A DNA stretch of 64,000 nt from a virus. Below, piece by piece: positions 59,143-64,000 of this stretch. The stretch spans positions 62,001 to 126,000 of the IMG/VR virus record IMGVR_UViG_3300030329_006583. One strand, 5' to 3'. The position numbers and the translations under genes were made by a program. Under the pieces are notes generated by a model. That model was not told the origin of the DNA. It ran no database searches and saw nothing but the letters and a program-made list of their open reading frames with translations. Position 1 is the first letter of the stretch. Every line of letters begins with the position of its first letter.

Positions 59143-60441
59143 TTACAATATACTAGTAGCTAGAGAAGCAATTTCAGATCTGTGCCCATTTATTAAATGT
59201 ACATGACCGGTTAACATAGATTCTTTGAATTTTTGTACCACAATTGTTAGGCCATTAGATCTTTTATCAATGTAAGGTGTATCCACTTGATCTGTATCAC
59301 CCAATAAAACTATTTTAGAACCTTTACCGATTCTGGTAATTATTGTTTTTAGTTCATGAATGGTGGCATTTTGTGCTTCATCAACAATTACAAATGAATC
59401 ATTAAATGTTCTTCCTCTAATATATGACAGAGGGGAAATTTCTATTTCACCCTTTTGACGCATACTTTCAAAATACGATATATCGTTAAATGCGTGTCTA
59501 AAATTATCTATTAATGGTGCCATCCATGGTGCCATTTTTTCATCAACATCACCAGGTAAATAACCTAAATCCCTACCTACCGGTTCAATTGATCGTGTAA
59601 CTACTATTCTTTTATATTTTTTTTTAAATAAACCTGATAGTGCACTCATGAGTGTAATAAATGTTTTACCAGATCCTGCAATTCCAGTAATTGTGACTAG
59701 CTGTATATTGGGATTATTTAATAATCCGACTGCAAATGCTTGTTCTTTGTTTTTAGGTTCAATCCCTAAATCACTGTTAAAAGAAGCCAATCGATTTTTT
59801 TTAATATATCCGTTTTCATATATGCCTAATAAAGATTTGCCAAGCGGCGATTTTCCAATAATAAATTGATTTTCAAATACTTTTTCATCACCATTATATT
59901 GTATTTTTCCATGTTCGAAAAACAGATCAACATCACTATCAGAAAGTTCCAGCTGTATTTTACCTGAATATGCTGTATCTGCAGATAATTCTAGATGATC
60001 CTTCCAATAGTCTTCACCAATTAATCCTAATGCATCACATTTAACACGAAGGTTTATGTCTTTTGTAACAACTTTAACAGGGGTATTTTTAAATTCTAAG
60101 GCTAATTTAAGTGCACTACCCAATATTTGATTGTCGGCTAATTCTATGTCCAAACCATCAGGGATATTATTTCTAGAGTACTTGGTTTCAATTCTAATGG
60201 TCTGATCAGATTCCGGAATAGTTACGGCCTTATCCAATCGCCCAATGTCTCTAAGGCTATCTAGATAGCGATTGACATACCTGGCAGATTCACCTAATAA
60301 ACCAGGCTTATTTTTAAATTTGTCTAATTCATCTAAAACGGGAAGTGGAAGAACCACGTCATTTCCGGGGAATGAATGAATAGCTGTCATATCATAAAGA
60401 AGAACACTAGTGTCAACCACTAATACTTTTCTAGAGCTCAT
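59143..60441 (-). CDS. phoH: PIN-PhoH ATPase/ribonuclease (432 aa)
   Basis: N-terminal PIN domain: KVLVVDTSVLLYDMTAIHSF with the catalytic Asp (residues ~6-25), LPVLDELDKFK, and D-x-(Q)-I-L. C-terminal PhoH helicase-like ATPase: ITGIAGSGKTFITLMSAL Walker A (about 250-267), RSIEPVGRDLGYLPGDVDEKM, and SFVIVDEAQNATIHELK Walker B (about 345-360), GDTDQVDTP. The combination is the PhoH2 toxin-like helicase-RNase. I chose the ATG at 60441 with AAGGAAAT 5 nt upstream rather than a TTG-like upstream extension. PhoH genes are common in marine phages. Confidence 0.92.
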   Translation of the reverse strand: MSSRKVLVVDTSVLLYDMTAIHSFPGNDVVLPLPVLDELDKFKNKPGLLGESARYVNRYLDSLRDIGRLDKAVTIPESDQTIRIETKYSRNNIPDGLDIELADNQILGSALKLALEFKNTPVKVVTKDINLRVKCDALGLIGEDYWKDHLELSADTAYSGKIQLELSDSDVDLFFEHGKIQYNGDEKVFENQFIIGKSPLGKSLLGIYENGYIKKNRLASFNSDLGIEPKNKEQAFAVGLLNNPNIQLVTITGIAGSGKTFITLMSALSGLFKKKYKRIVVTRSIEPVGRDLGYLPGDVDEKMAPWMAPLIDNFRHAFNDISYFESMRQKGEIEISPLSYIRGRTFNDSFVIVDEAQNATIHELKTIITRIGKGSKIVLLGDTDQVDTPYIDKRSNGLTIVVQKFKESMLTGHVHLINGHRSEIASLATSIL

Positions 60442-60454
60442 GCAATTTCCTTTC

Positions 60455-60475
60455 GTGTACATTTAACGTATACAC
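60455..60475. promoter_or_regulatory. Imperfect palindrome in the divergent PhoH / HTH gene promoter region
   Basis: GTGTACAT (60455-60462) and GTATACAC (60468-60475) around TTAAC form a 21-bp near-palindrome (GTGTAY-AY pattern). It lies in the ~70-bp spacer between the divergent PhoH gene and the lone plus-strand gene, immediately upstream of the PhoH ribosome site. The shape suits a dimeric DNA-binding protein; the HTH protein transcribed away from it is one candidate. A T4-type late promoter motif TATAAATA follows at 60490-60497 on the + strand. Confidence 0.4.
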
Positions 60476-60511
60476 AATATTGTTCTTAATATAAATATGG
60501 AAACGTTTAAT

Positions 60512-60808
60512 ATGAAGCATAAAATAAATTTAATGAATTTATCAAATGGGGAAAAAGAAAAGATTGATTGTGATAGTACGTGTTATGAAATTTGCAAAAA
60601 TTATGATGTAGAGTGTAATCAAACACTTTGCAATTATTGGATTAACGATAATAAAAACAATAATTGTGTATTTCTTAGTGCTAATAACGGTGCTAAAACA
60701 TTACAACAGATTGGTGACATATTTGGCATTACAAGAATGCGCATATGCCAAATTGAAAAAAATGCCTTGAAAAAGCTTTGTAAAAAAAGTAAAAAATACG
60801 GGTATTAA
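60512..60808 (+). CDS. Sigma-region-4-like HTH protein (98 aa)
   Basis: The only convincing plus-strand gene. The C-terminal half TLQQIGDIFGITRMRICQIEKNALKKLCKK (about residues 66-95) is a close match to sigma70 region 4.2 (T-L-E-E-(I/V)-G--(F/Y)-G-(V/I)-(T/S)R-x-R-(I/V)-x-Q-(I/L)E--AL-KL). The N-terminal part has six Cys residues (CDSTCYEIC, CNQTLC) that could bind metal. No region 2 is present. ATG at 60512 has GGAAA 8 nt upstream; an ATG at 60497 lacks a ribosome site. It ends tail-to-tail with the FtsZ-like gene, overlapping by 4 bp. Probably a transcription regulator. Confidence 0.82.
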   Translation: MKHKINLMNLSNGEKEKIDCDSTCYEICKNYDVECNQTLCNYWINDNKNNNCVFLSANNGAKTLQQIGDIFGITRMRICQIEKNALKKLCKKSKKYGY

Positions 60809-61953
60809 ATACCACCCAACAAAGTAATTGCAACCAATCCGGGAATTCCTTCTTTTACGTAAACACCTGAAAATAGTGTGTTTGTTCTTCCGCCAACATA
60901 AGAAAATGCCGATTCCAGTCTTTTGCTCACCATTGGATCACCTGCCATTTCACTATTTGCAATCAATAACAAAACACCGGTCTCTGTGTTGCCTGTTGGT
61001 CCGGGACAAGGGGAAGATTTAAGAGAACCTTGGAATACACTAGCACCTAAATCAGATTTTGAAACATCCCTAATAACAGTACTCCCAATTACCATTCTAC
61101 CATTAACACCCAAGCATTTTTCTAAATCCTTTGAATCAAATGTTTGAATAGGTGATGGTTCATCTGCTAATTTAAAAACCTGACTCAATAATTTTGCAAA
61201 GTTTTTATTAGCAGCTGGGAACATATTTAACATCCCAACCTTTCCTCTTAGAAGTTGTAACTGTTTTTCATTATCAATTACAATATGAGGATAATCGCAG
61301 ACATCTTCTAGAACAGATTTATAATTTGTTGAAATTGTGGGATTTAATAATTCTTGTGCAGTAGGTTTTGAAACAACATAAACCACTTTACCAGAAGCCT
61401 CTGACGATGAAAGGTATCTACTAATAGAGCCATGTAATTCGGCACATGCACTCCCGGTACCGCCACCACCACCGGCTAATACAAATACCCAATCCACTTT
61501 CCCTATTTTGGATCTTAATGCATCTTCAACCATGGTACTATTATTGCGTAATACCTCTTTCCCCAAAACAATATCTTTTCCGACCCCATCTGCACCAGGG
61601 ATTACTAACACATGCTGATCTTCTACGCCGGTAGGTAAATCCTTGAGTGTGGTGTTAACAAGCAATGTTTTATTAAACCCTAGATCCATAAATGCTTTTG
61701 CTAATTTTCCACCACCACCACCAACTCCGATAAAAGCGCAATTAATGGCACTAGTAAATGTATTTTCCGGAAGAAGCTGATCATCCGCAATGGGTTCATC
61801 ATCATATGCTTCCACAAAATCAAATTCATCCATCACATCTGGTGGATTGATATAATCGTCATCCTGTTTTTTCTTTTTGCTCACGATACGCTCCTTCTTA
61901 TTTTTGAGTGGAAGATTATAATTAGTCATAGATTTTACTACTGTTGACGGCAT
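60805..61953 (-). CDS. FtsZ/tubulin-like GTPase (382 aa)
   Basis: Tubulin/FtsZ superfamily. After a ~65-aa charged, probably disordered N-terminus comes IGVGGGGGKL (residues 75-84, FtsZ G-box 1), LLVNTTLKDL (97-106, as FtsZ -INTDAQ-L), the tubulin signature VLAGGGGGTGSACAEL (158-173), VVYVVSKPTAQE (190-201), and IVIDNEKQL (224-232, base-contact Asn). TFDSKDLEKCLGVNGRMVIGS (271-291) is the T7 loop: D273 and D276 align with the two catalytic Asp of FtsZ N-x-D-x-x-D, so the polymer can probably hydrolyse GTP. Length equals FtsZ. It could form a filament for positioning phage DNA, as PhuZ/TubZ do, or interact with host FtsZ. It lies beside tmRNA. Confidence 0.82.
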   Translation of the reverse strand: MPSTVVKSMTNYNLPLKNKKERIVSKKKKQDDDYINPPDVMDEFDFVEAYDDEPIADDQLLPENTFTSAINCAFIGVGGGGGKLAKAFMDLGFNKTLLVNTTLKDLPTGVEDQHVLVIPGADGVGKDIVLGKEVLRNNSTMVEDALRSKIGKVDWVFVLAGGGGGTGSACAELHGSISRYLSSSEASGKVVYVVSKPTAQELLNPTISTNYKSVLEDVCDYPHIVIDNEKQLQLLRGKVGMLNMFPAANKNFAKLLSQVFKLADEPSPIQTFDSKDLEKCLGVNGRMVIGSTVIRDVSKSDLGASVFQGSLKSSPCPGPTGNTETGVLLLIANSEMAGDPMVSKRLESAFSYVGGRTNTLFSGVYVKEGIPGLVAITLLGGI

Positions 61954-62006
61954 ATGTCCCTTATTCCACCTTCATATATATACGGTAATTCCTTAAATTA
62001 ATTAAG

Positions 62007-62405
62007 TGGAGACGCCGGGAATCGAACCCGGGTCCTAAATACCTCCAACATCATGTCATTCACAAGGTTAGCCATTTTACTCTAAACCGGCAAAGTAACT
62101 CGAATTATCCCATCCCATATCGAGTATCTGGGATCCACCTGTATAAAAAGGTAATCACTTATTTCTAACTGAAAACCTTTTTTACCACCAGGGTAACCAT
62201 TCAGCCCTATTTACTCGAAGGCCAATCGAGTTTTGCTGGTCTTAGTTAAAAAGGCTCCCAGCAGCCTCGGATTAAGCAGCTAGTGCGTAATCGTTGTAAG
62301 TGTCAGTGTTGGCACTTATTAAGTTCAGCGTTTTTACAGAGACCTTCGCTGCCCTCTGCCTTGCACATAATGGTTTTGATACTCAGTCGAAACCTTTACA
62401 TCCCC
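62007..62405 (-). ncRNA. ssrA: Transfer-messenger RNA (tmRNA, one-piece)
   Basis: Both ends of the tRNA-like domain are present on the minus strand. The 5' end GGGGATG pairs with CGTCTCC at the 3' end, seven pairs including G3-U70, the alanyl-tRNA synthetase identity element. The conserved GGTTTCGACT stretch follows the 5' end, and the T-arm CCGGGTTCGATTCCCGG precedes the 3' end. The discriminator base A is followed by CTT, so CCA is not encoded and must be added. The tag frame is intact and several pseudoknot-forming arms are visible between. Length 399 nt. Immediately upstream is the Hc1-like gene, downstream the FtsZ-like gene. Confidence 0.95.
62272..62313 (-). other. tmRNA tag reading frame ANTDTYNDYALAA
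   Basis: Reading from a GCC resume codon to TAA gives ANTDTYNDYALAA (a charged Ala is added in front). The YALAA end is the usual degradation signal read by ClpXP-type proteases. The frame is preceded by an A/T-rich segment and flanked by stem-forming GC stretches as in known tmRNAs. Confidence 0.92.
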
Positions 62406-62420
62406 AATATTAATTTAAAT

Positions 62421-62606
62421 CTATTTTCTAGATTTTTCTTCACTAATTGTTAATTTTACCAGATCTTGAGCTTCCTTTTTCAATAATCTTAAACCCTTTC
62501 TAGCTCTTACACCGGCTGATGCATTTCCACTAGCATTTTTATGTACGTCTAACTCAAGACTCTCTACCAATACCTTTATTTCGTTCCACTTATCAATGAT
62601 TGACAT
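62421..62606 (-). CDS. Histone H1/Hc1-like DNA-binding protein (61 aa)
   Basis: The sequence MSIIDKWNEIKVLVESLEL, VHKNASGNASAGVRARKGLRLLKKEAQDL resembles the Hc1-type bacterial histone-like proteins (PF07432-like pattern: K-(x)-LVESLE-DV-K--GN-A-G-RARK-L--LKK-AQ). They bind and condense DNA through a single helical hairpin. ATG is preceded by TAAGGAGA at good spacing. It lies 15 bp from the tmRNA. It could condense phage DNA or alter host nucleoid structure; the role is inferred. Confidence 0.83.
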   Translation of the reverse strand: MSIIDKWNEIKVLVESLELDVHKNASGNASAGVRARKGLRLLKKEAQDLVKLTISEEKSRK

Positions 62607-62616
62607 AATTTTCTCC

Positions 62617-62832
62617 TTAAATTATAATATTAGAATCATTTTGATTCTGCGCTTCTGTGATATCATCCATGAATTGCTGACAACATTGCGAAATTTCCGT
62701 GAGTGCATTATTATCTTCTAATTCTAATGATAACAAATAACAAATTTTTAAAATCTGTTGTTGTGTAACACCATAATCAAGTATGGTTTTTACAATTTCT
62801 CTGCTCACTATTGATTTTTCTATTGCGTCCAT
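62617..62832 (-). CDS. Small helical phage protein (71 aa)
   Basis: Three predicted helices: DAIEKSIVSREIVKTILDYG, VTQQQILKICYLLSLELEDN, and NALTEISQCCQQFMDDITEAQ, with a hydrophobic C-terminus (SNIII). The motif SREIVK-IL-(D/N)(F/Y)GV--QQI-KI-LL-LEL resembles small proteins seen in T4-like marine phages. Function unknown. ATG preceded by GGAGTAAAA. Lies 10 bp upstream of the Hc1-like gene. Confidence 0.75.
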   Translation of the reverse strand: MDAIEKSIVSREIVKTILDYGVTQQQILKICYLLSLELEDNNALTEISQCCQQFMDDITEAQNQNDSNIII

Positions 62833-62842
62833 ATTTTACGTT

Positions 62843-63307
62843 TTACTCCACCGCCCTTCTATCTATAAATGATTCTATCTTAAATTTATCTTCTTTTTCA
62901 AAAACCAACATTTTACCGGTGATTTCATTTTCAACGTCATCTTTTGTCAAAACTACAAAAGATCCCCATCTTTTATTATCTATAATAAATTTAACATTTT
63001 CATAAGTGGGCAAATCACATTTATACGATTCTAGAATTTCAACTACACCTTTATCCAAAGTATATTTTATATCAATAATGGAGGATTGTGATTTTAAATC
63101 ATCCTTCCCAGCCATAATATGAGATTTACAAATATCAAATATTTTATGTATCACCCCACAATTATTACATGTAACATATTTTGGAATGACTGTATCACTA
63201 TCATCAATAATAGAAAACACAACGAATTTATGATATGCAAAATTCTCTTTATTCCTAAACTGAGGTAATACACAATGACATTCAATTATGTGTTTAATCC
63301 CATCCAT
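62843..63307 (-). CDS. Zinc-ribbon-containing phage protein (154 aa)
   Basis: The segment KYVTCNNCGVIHKIFDICKS (about residues 42-62) contains C-x2-C and a later Cys, suggesting a zinc ribbon. The N-terminal HIIECHCVLPQF and C-terminal LPTYENVKFIIDNKRWGSFVVLTKDDVENEI are conserved-looking beta/helix segments like those I associate with T4-like phage proteins of unknown function. No catalytic motif. Spacing to the next genes is short (10 bp). Confidence 0.78.
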   Translation of the reverse strand: MDGIKHIIECHCVLPQFRNKENFAYHKFVVFSIIDDSDTVIPKYVTCNNCGVIHKIFDICKSHIMAGKDDLKSQSSIIDIKYTLDKGVVEILESYKCDLPTYENVKFIIDNKRWGSFVVLTKDDVENEITGKMLVFEKEDKFKIESFIDRRAVE

Positions 63308-63316
63308 GTTTTTATT

Positions 63317-63523
63317 TTATTGCTTTTTAACTACAGATAACACATTATTTGATCCACGATCAAACGACATATTGACACTATTTGTCACTGTATTTAATAA
63401 TGATTTTAATTCTTCTTTTGTTAATGTTGATCTGTATGTTTCTACCACTGAATTATTAATTTGAGAAACAACAAAATCCCTTAATTCATATAATTTTCTG
63501 CCAAGTTCACTTTCTAAACTCAT
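63317..63523 (-). CDS. Small helical phage protein (68 aa)
   Basis: The start at 63523 (MSLESELGRKLYELRDFVV) is chosen because GGAGGGTGG precedes it by 2-3 nt; a frame extension to 63565 lacks a ribosome site. The protein is helical and charged, with a SLLNTVTNSVNMSFDRGSN middle and no known motif. It lies between the YkuK-like gene and the zinc-ribbon gene. Confidence 0.7.
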   Translation of the reverse strand: MSLESELGRKLYELRDFVVSQINNSVVETYRSTLTKEELKSLLNTVTNSVNMSFDRGSNNVLSVVKKQ

Positions 63524-63534
63524 ATCCACCCTCC

Positions 63535-63556
63535 ATGGAAAATATATGGAAAATAT
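63535..63556. repeat. Tandem 11-bp repeat
   Basis: ATGGAAAATAT occurs twice back to back in the 83-bp gap 63524-63606, adjacent to the ribosome site of the 68-aa gene. This may be a regulatory repeat or a slippage product; the rest of the gap is AT-rich. Confidence 0.6.
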
Positions 63557-63606
63557 ATTCCTCACGTAACACTAGTTAAATTGAAGTATGAAATTTGTAT
63601 AAATAA

Positions 63607-64000
63607 TTATTTCGTGTATTTATCGGCAACGGTAGCAGATGCCCATGAATCAGGTTTTAAAAGATAATTAAATCCCATTCCTAATGCATAATTCGCTAAT
63701 GATTTTGCATATTTTGCACTTTTATGAATGATATTTTGATTGGCATCAATATGAATTGTGATTTTTTTTCCGGTTTCCGTTTTAATCGAATTTGCAATAT
63801 GAATAGATCTTTCTACTTCTTCAAATAATCTAGCTTGTAGATTGTTGTAATGGTGCCTAGGTTTTTGAGATTTATTGACGAAATATACCCCACCATTACC
63901 AGGCCATGTCAAACAAATGGCTGTAACATATGTAATATTTTCTTTAACAACATGAGAATCTGAACCTACATGAATTTCAACAGGATTTAAATTTTTTATT
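63607..64000 (-). CDS. YkuK/DUF458-like RNase H-fold protein, 5' part beyond window
   Basis: The frame is open to the window edge, so the N-terminus is missing and the TTG-type start at 63912 is not real. The visible start region contains EIHVGSDSHVVKENITYVTAICLTWPGNGGVYF, with the H-V-G-S-D-S-H motif and acidic residues of the RNase H-like YkuK family; the end ITIHIDANQN and LLKPDSWASATVADKYTK match the conserved C-terminus (PDS-AAS-VADRYTK). The visible part is 131 codons. YkuK proteins are uncharacterised RNase H-fold nucleases. Confidence 0.8.
   Translation of the reverse strand, partial: IKNLNPVEIHVGSDSHVVKENITYVTAICLTWPGNGGVYFVNKSQKPRHHYNNLQARLFEEVERSIHIANSIKTETGKKITIHIDANQNIIHKSAKYAKSLANYALGMGFNYLLKPDSWASATVADKYTK

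Follow-up and report, generated by a model that had tools for sequence, protein, structure and literature searches.

A predicted tubulin/FtsZ subfamily with reversed tails in large uncultured T4-type phages

The 64,000-nucleotide stretch of viral DNA analysed here (the window; positions 62001-126000 of a virus record of 267,118 bases) encodes a GTPase that, judged by its sequence, represents a new subfamily of the tubulin/FtsZ superfamily, set apart by a reversed arrangement of its tails and by a new phage setting, that of gp23-type phages. We give about an even chance to the reading that these proteins are a distinct phage tubulin/FtsZ subfamily forming a dynamic filament that organises phage DNA or virion assembly. 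Phage tubulins have been discussed mostly as the PhuZ proteins of nucleus-forming phages, together with the TubZ proteins of a few large Bacillus and Clostridium elements. In jumbo phages, tubulin has been described for the nucleus-forming group and, as TubZ, for phage c-st (PMC7950403, PMC10299810). A survey of 224 jumbo phages distinguished two types of FtsZ/tubulin (PMC7824862), and among marine jumbo phages tubulin was reported to be unique to the PhiKZ-like cluster (PMC9123017). No description of the window family was found in the freely readable papers that were searched.

Fold, nucleotide site and selection

The GTPase gene is a single ORF of 382 amino acids on the minus strand of the window (60805-61953), and it occurs once in the 267,118-base record. 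A first-pass annotation, made from the letters of the window alone, had placed an FtsZ/tubulin-like GTPase here with its strand unstated, and the frame was recovered in full. The protein matches the Pfam Tubulin model at 33.9 bits against a curated cut-off of 33, and FtsZ chains in the PDB match it at 1e-9; among its relatives, 44 of 45 match Pfam Tubulin and all 45 match the NCBIfam ftsZ model. The PHROG tubulin PhuZ profile gives a marginal match (E=0.026). By profile comparison, the window protein is thus a member of the tubulin/FtsZ superfamily, its similarity lying far beyond chance.

An AlphaFold2 model built with 45 aligned relatives (pLDDT 87.1, pTM 0.81) predicts a complete two-domain tubulin fold, with most of residues ~61-382 above 90 and residues 1-37 under 50. 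Searched with Foldseek against the PDB, it recovers CetZ at 1.3e-19 (3zid, the top match), FtsZ at 2.6e-19 along with many more FtsZ entries, and TubZ at 1.5e-17 (TM-score up to 0.68), the matches running over ~320-370 columns that cover both domains. Structure prediction had been proposed as a check by the annotation, and the tubulin fold and the C-terminal (activation) domain (residues 282-382, 60808..61110, minus strand), with its tail-less end, are both present in the model, so that the refuting outcome named by the annotation, absence of either one, did not arise. Viral structural matches in BFVD are led by an uncultured-phage protein labelled "FtsZ cell division GTPase" (A0A6J5RW92, 17% identity) and an "FtsZ" of Myoviridae sp. 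ctcyQ27 (20% identity), followed by tubulin/PhuZ-like proteins at 12-15% identity.

The residues expected of a nucleotide site of this fold are in place, as the annotation had claimed from the letters. The T1 phosphate loop (residues 76-83, GVGGGGGK; 61705..61728, minus strand), with glycines G76-G82, is conserved in relatives, and so is the T4 tubulin signature (residues 161-168, GGGGGTGS; 61450..61473, minus strand), which holds the T4 loop G162-S168. In alignments with FtsZ, N228 falls on the base-contact asparagine and N249 on the next base-contact position, an aspartate in FtsZ; we take both positions to be base contacts, and D273 and D276 to be the T7 aspartates. These two aspartates (61137-61135 and 61128-61126, minus strand) lie in the FDSKDLEK stretch of the T7 loop (residues 269-277, IQTFDSKDL; 61123..61149, minus strand), which aligns with FtsZ NVDFADV such that both coincide with the FtsZ T7-loop aspartates; the FtsZ T7 asparagine is not retained, being replaced by T271 in most members. 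All 82 distinct relatives are identical at D273, D276, N228, N249 and GGGTGS, and the T1 glycines, K83, N100-T101-T102, K104, D105, G163-S168, P197, Q200, E201, N204 and A248 are likewise invariant. Close relatives compared in pairs give dN/dS values of 0.006-0.05. The gene is under very strong purifying selection, and this low ratio together with the invariant residues rules out a chance ORF or a pseudogene.

Tails and translation starts

Ahead of the folded part lies an acidic N-terminal tail (residues 42-64, DEFDFVEAYDDEPIADDQLLPEN; 61762..61830, minus strand) that is conserved in the family, with a core of DFDFVxxY, a net charge that averages about -10.7 and low AlphaFold2 confidence. At the opposite end no tail was found: in 82 relatives, 6-13 residues follow the last-strand PGL(I/V)A. 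The window family therefore shows neither the linker and conserved peptide of FtsZ nor the C-terminal helix and acidic knuckle of PhuZ nor the flexible TubR/TubY-binding tail of TubZ. PhuZ has a C-terminal helix and requires its acidic knuckle (PMC3678025), while the flexible C-terminal tail of TubZ serves both the arrangement of filaments and the binding of partners, TubR included (PMC5322520). TubZ-type proteins start at the first strand and end in a tail of ~60 residues, whereas the window family does the opposite. On these alignments, its tail arrangement is the reverse of the TubZ type, with an N-terminal tail present and a C-terminal one absent.

The acidic tail is preceded by two candidate starts. 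The long form opens at the ATG at 61953 (60805..61953, minus strand; 382 aa, beginning MPST), and its residues 1-23 (61885..61953, minus strand) open with the conserved M[APG]S[STG] start and continue as a basic stretch of variable sequence. A predicted short form of 359 amino acids (60805..61884, minus strand) would begin at an internal GTG at 61884, codon 24, six bases after a Shine-Dalgarno-like AAGGAG (61891..61896, minus strand). Most relatives have such an internal start with a Shine-Dalgarno-like sequence ahead of the acidic stretch, and about half of the loci add an upstream in-frame start that is M[APG]S[STG] or a near match. A scan of 76 loci for starts of this type found 40 in frame and open, 4 in frame and interrupted, and 2 in other frames, and serine codons from both families occur among them. 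The in-frame excess and the use of both serine codon families indicate that the constraint acts on the protein. The simplest reading of the double start is that one gene gives rise to two protein forms, as predicted from the sequence. Were M[APG]S[STG] a general phage signal, it would be met elsewhere; a search of 2197 ORFs turned up the extended motif in none of the other gene clusters, and that explanation was rejected.

A few observations touch on the same region. A plus-strand ORF of 97 amino acids at G000:C1:196133-196426 has a start resembling that of the long form (MPSGIKRSFG), which may be chance. The GTPase gene may be interrupted at L101:10001-11647, where a match 1,647 bases long is split between two neighbouring ORFs. 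The T4 late promoter TATAAATA is absent upstream of the GTPase gene. The sequence TATTTATA stands upstream of it in 12 of 82 relatives (~1 expected; for example L010, L012 and L027), and CATATTTA does so in 14 of 82; the two are possibly a phage promoter.

Kinship and phage setting

Against the family profile, TubZ-type proteins of plasmids reach 77, 62, 54, 51, 43 and 42 bits, with a distant outlier at 14, compared with 59 for Bacillus phage G gp138, 38 for E. coli FtsZ and 20 for the best PhuZ. The top-scoring references are thus of the TubZ type (Bacillota plasmids plaBV1, a B. pumilus plasmid and pBM400, and phage G gp138). In hhalign, the plaBV1 plasmid protein aligns over its full length (2e-16) and gp138 across the GTPase part (9e-12), while phiKZ PhuZ does not align. 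Identity between TubZ-type proteins and the window family is 25-29%, and the TubZ-type T7 region SKISTLDRKDL resembles the family's SPIQTFDSKDL. FtsZ shares with the family its fold, loops and T7 aspartates but only ~20% identity. Archaeal CetZ, which supplies the top Foldseek match, has 18% identity to the window protein, and its kinship is given by profile score only (1.5e-7).

The annotation had also proposed a phylogeny. A maximum-likelihood tree with 30 rows, several of them long and CetZ left out, puts the window family in its own long-branch clade (100/99), apart from the FtsZ clade (100/100) and the PhuZ clade (100/100), and no supported clade joins it with the TubZ-type rows. The label "FtsZ-type" accordingly holds for the superfamily and for both catalytic aspartates but not for FtsZ specifically, since TubZ-type proteins score higher and the clade is separate. 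As a family name, FtsZ was rejected on that separate clade, on the NCBIfam ftsZ score of the window protein (43.5 bits, far under the family cut-off of 295.2) and on the missing DIPxFLR-type peptide and linker. A PhuZ identity was rejected on near-undetectable similarity, a best profile score of 20 bits and a separate clade. The GTPase is neither a canonical FtsZ nor a canonical PhuZ or TubZ, and with its relatives it makes up a clade of its own.

A first scan of viral contigs found 61 relatives and a second one 173; the family is thus encoded by no fewer than 173 IMG/VR contigs, and the members that were aligned share 56-72% identity with the window protein. Among isolate phages the sole relative is Bacillus phage G gp138, at 25% identity. 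Each of the 27 records tested has a single copy of the gene. Of 28 records, 18 carry a T4-type gp23, among them every record that reaches 119 kb; the other ten, contigs of 76-118 kb, may be fragments. In the window phage, the T4-type setting proposed by the annotation stands for gp25 and gp6, both in the window, and is extended by a major capsid gene, gp23, in another part of the record, but its "gp55" was not confirmed, having no Pfam match and one weak match to a PHROG of unknown function. The nearest isolate capsids include those of Flavobacterium phages, at ~49%. In a scan of genomes, only four MAG contigs carry the GTPase gene, three from Flavobacteriales and one from Halobacteriovorax; these are probably binned phage DNA, and a host or prophage gene was rejected on this ground. 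Together with the Flavobacterium phage capsids, they make Bacteroidota a tentative first guess at the host. Tandem pairs of gp23-type capsid genes occur in two related records (G002:C1:176509-180120 and G015:C1:139350-142938), and an adjacent pair of tail-sheath genes, ~1,090 aa each, at G000:C1:25939-32546 recurs in several relatives.

PhuZ likewise brings a tubulin fold to jumbo phages and likewise acts without an operon partner, but it belongs to nucleus-forming phages, whereas the window family sits in gp23 phages. In ten records, the multisubunit RNA polymerase of the nucleus type was not found, with working controls and records that may be incomplete, and chimallin was not detected in a search run without a positive control. 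The carriers thus appear, from their gene content, to be large uncultured T4-type (gp23) phages with no sign of a phage nucleus detected.

Genomic neighbourhood and possible function

Directly upstream of the GTPase gene, the window carries a tmRNA gene (62004..62405, minus strand; ARAGORN, and Rfam RF00023 at 128 bits) and then a gene for an Hc1-like histone-like protein of 61 amino acids (62421..62606, minus strand; Pfam PF07432, 3.8e-10), both of which the annotation had named as neighbours. A convergent sigma-70 region 4 gene (60497..60808, plus strand; Pfam PF04545, 3.9e-10) overlaps the GTPase stop by 4 bases and holds the same position in related phages, and a PhoH/PIN-domain gene follows downstream (59143..60462, minus strand; Pfam PF02562, 1.2e-53). 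The order in the window and in similar phages is DUF444/SpoVR/PrkA, GroEL-like, small genes, Hc1, tmRNA, GTPase, sigma-region-4 (convergent) and PhoH. Additional arrangements occur, and across its genomic contexts the gene has no constant neighbour; this speaks against an operon with an obligate partner and is as expected for a stand-alone filament.

In the mechanism we favour, subunits with bound GTP would join head to tail, and D273 and D276 of one subunit would supply the missing part of the next subunit's active site and so trigger hydrolysis, which would make the filament dynamic. By analogy with the C-terminal tails of TubZ and PhuZ, the acidic N-terminal tail may bind a partner or tether one subunit to another, and the long form would be a second isoform whose additional basic stretch could serve to anchor the filament or to mark it. 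In the infected cell such a filament would organise phage DNA or the assembly of virions, with neither a phage nucleus nor a TubR-tubC centromere involved. A bolder version, possible yet doubtful, makes the family a third kind of phage cytoskeleton that depends on neither the phage nucleus nor plasmid-style partition: an N-tailed tubulin in two forms set by alternative starts, one with a signature basic N-terminus, that organises T4-type virion production in space across a large group of jumbo phages. If a conserved single-copy tubulin does operate in gp23 phages without nucleus signs, intracellular filaments would be in more general use among large phages, cytoskeletons may occur in phages more widely than currently assumed, and phage tubulin function could be probed where no nucleus needs centring. 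The N-terminal tail and the two predicted forms would be variations on tubulin polymer regulation, and testable ones.

Other functions have to be weighed against this filament. The protein might sabotage host division by poisoning or replacing host FtsZ, such that infected cells stop dividing, grow and yield more phage per cell. FtsZ is its closest PDB family, and the disordered 60-residue N-terminal region could bind host division proteins; however, ~20% identity makes mixed polymers unlikely, the FtsZ C-terminal peptide to which division partners bind is missing, the nearest sequences are of the TubZ type, and the strong conservation of its own catalytic site suggests an active GTPase over a mere binding decoy. 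The annotation had suggested that the protein could position DNA or manipulate host division; a conserved gene that lacks a fixed partner is more in keeping with a filament working by itself than with an inhibitor of division, and we regard sabotage as unlikely. Sequence similarity to TubZ raises instead a type III (TubZ-like) partition system that would segregate phage DNA in a carrier or plasmid-like state. The family's nearest relatives, from Bacillota plasmids and phage G, mostly lie behind a small upstream ORF, a candidate tubR by size and place (94-112 codons in six of seven plasmid relatives, 98 codons ahead of gp138), as in tubR-tubZ. Yet no TubR-sized upstream partner is present in the window or conserved among relatives, no tubC-like or iteron-like repeat array was found in 60400-63700, and the C-terminal tail to which TubR binds in TubZ is absent. 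A classic TubR-TubZ operon was rejected for want of the partner gene and of repeats at the gene, and partition more broadly is quite unlikely.

A direct part in head or neck assembly, or a place in the virion itself, is suggested by ~25 loci in which the GTPase gene has the gp23 capsid gene on one side and, on the other, a block made up of a head-tail adaptor gene, two genes of unknown function and a tail-sheath gene. It is far from structural genes, though, in the window phage and in other contexts, and certain phages with a related capsid, including a 273-kb record, lack it, so that the gene is common but not universal and is not essential to that type of virion. Intact GTPase chemistry moreover points to a polymer and not to a structural part, and a morphogenesis factor seems very unlikely. 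The converse proposal, a tubulin-fold enzyme or regulator that does not polymerise, would suit the long branch of the clade and the absence of both polymerisation-aiding tails, those of PhuZ and TubZ. It sits poorly with the invariance, in 82 relatives, of the T7 aspartates, which in tubulins and FtsZ serve solely the nucleotide of the neighbouring subunit, and is likewise very unlikely.

Several features of the surrounding DNA are recorded here for their own sake. The tmRNA, which in relatives often lies immediately ahead of the GTPase gene, encodes variable tag peptides (ANTDTYNDYALAA in the window; ANDNVEFDYALAA, ANNNYHFEADRLAA and others in relatives). Genes for PrkA kinase, SpoVR and DUF444, the bacterial yeaG/yeaH/ycgB trio, are phage-borne here and adjacent to one another, with a GroEL-like gene alongside; the cluster lies at G000:C1:127777-132212, just past position 64000 of the window, and is also found at L006, L010, L013 and L067. 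Within the window, ~26 kb (32464-58988) appear by eye to form an island of glycosyltransferase and sugar-nucleotide genes, among them sugar epimerases, a UDP-galactopyranose mutase-like gene and nucleotidyltransferases.
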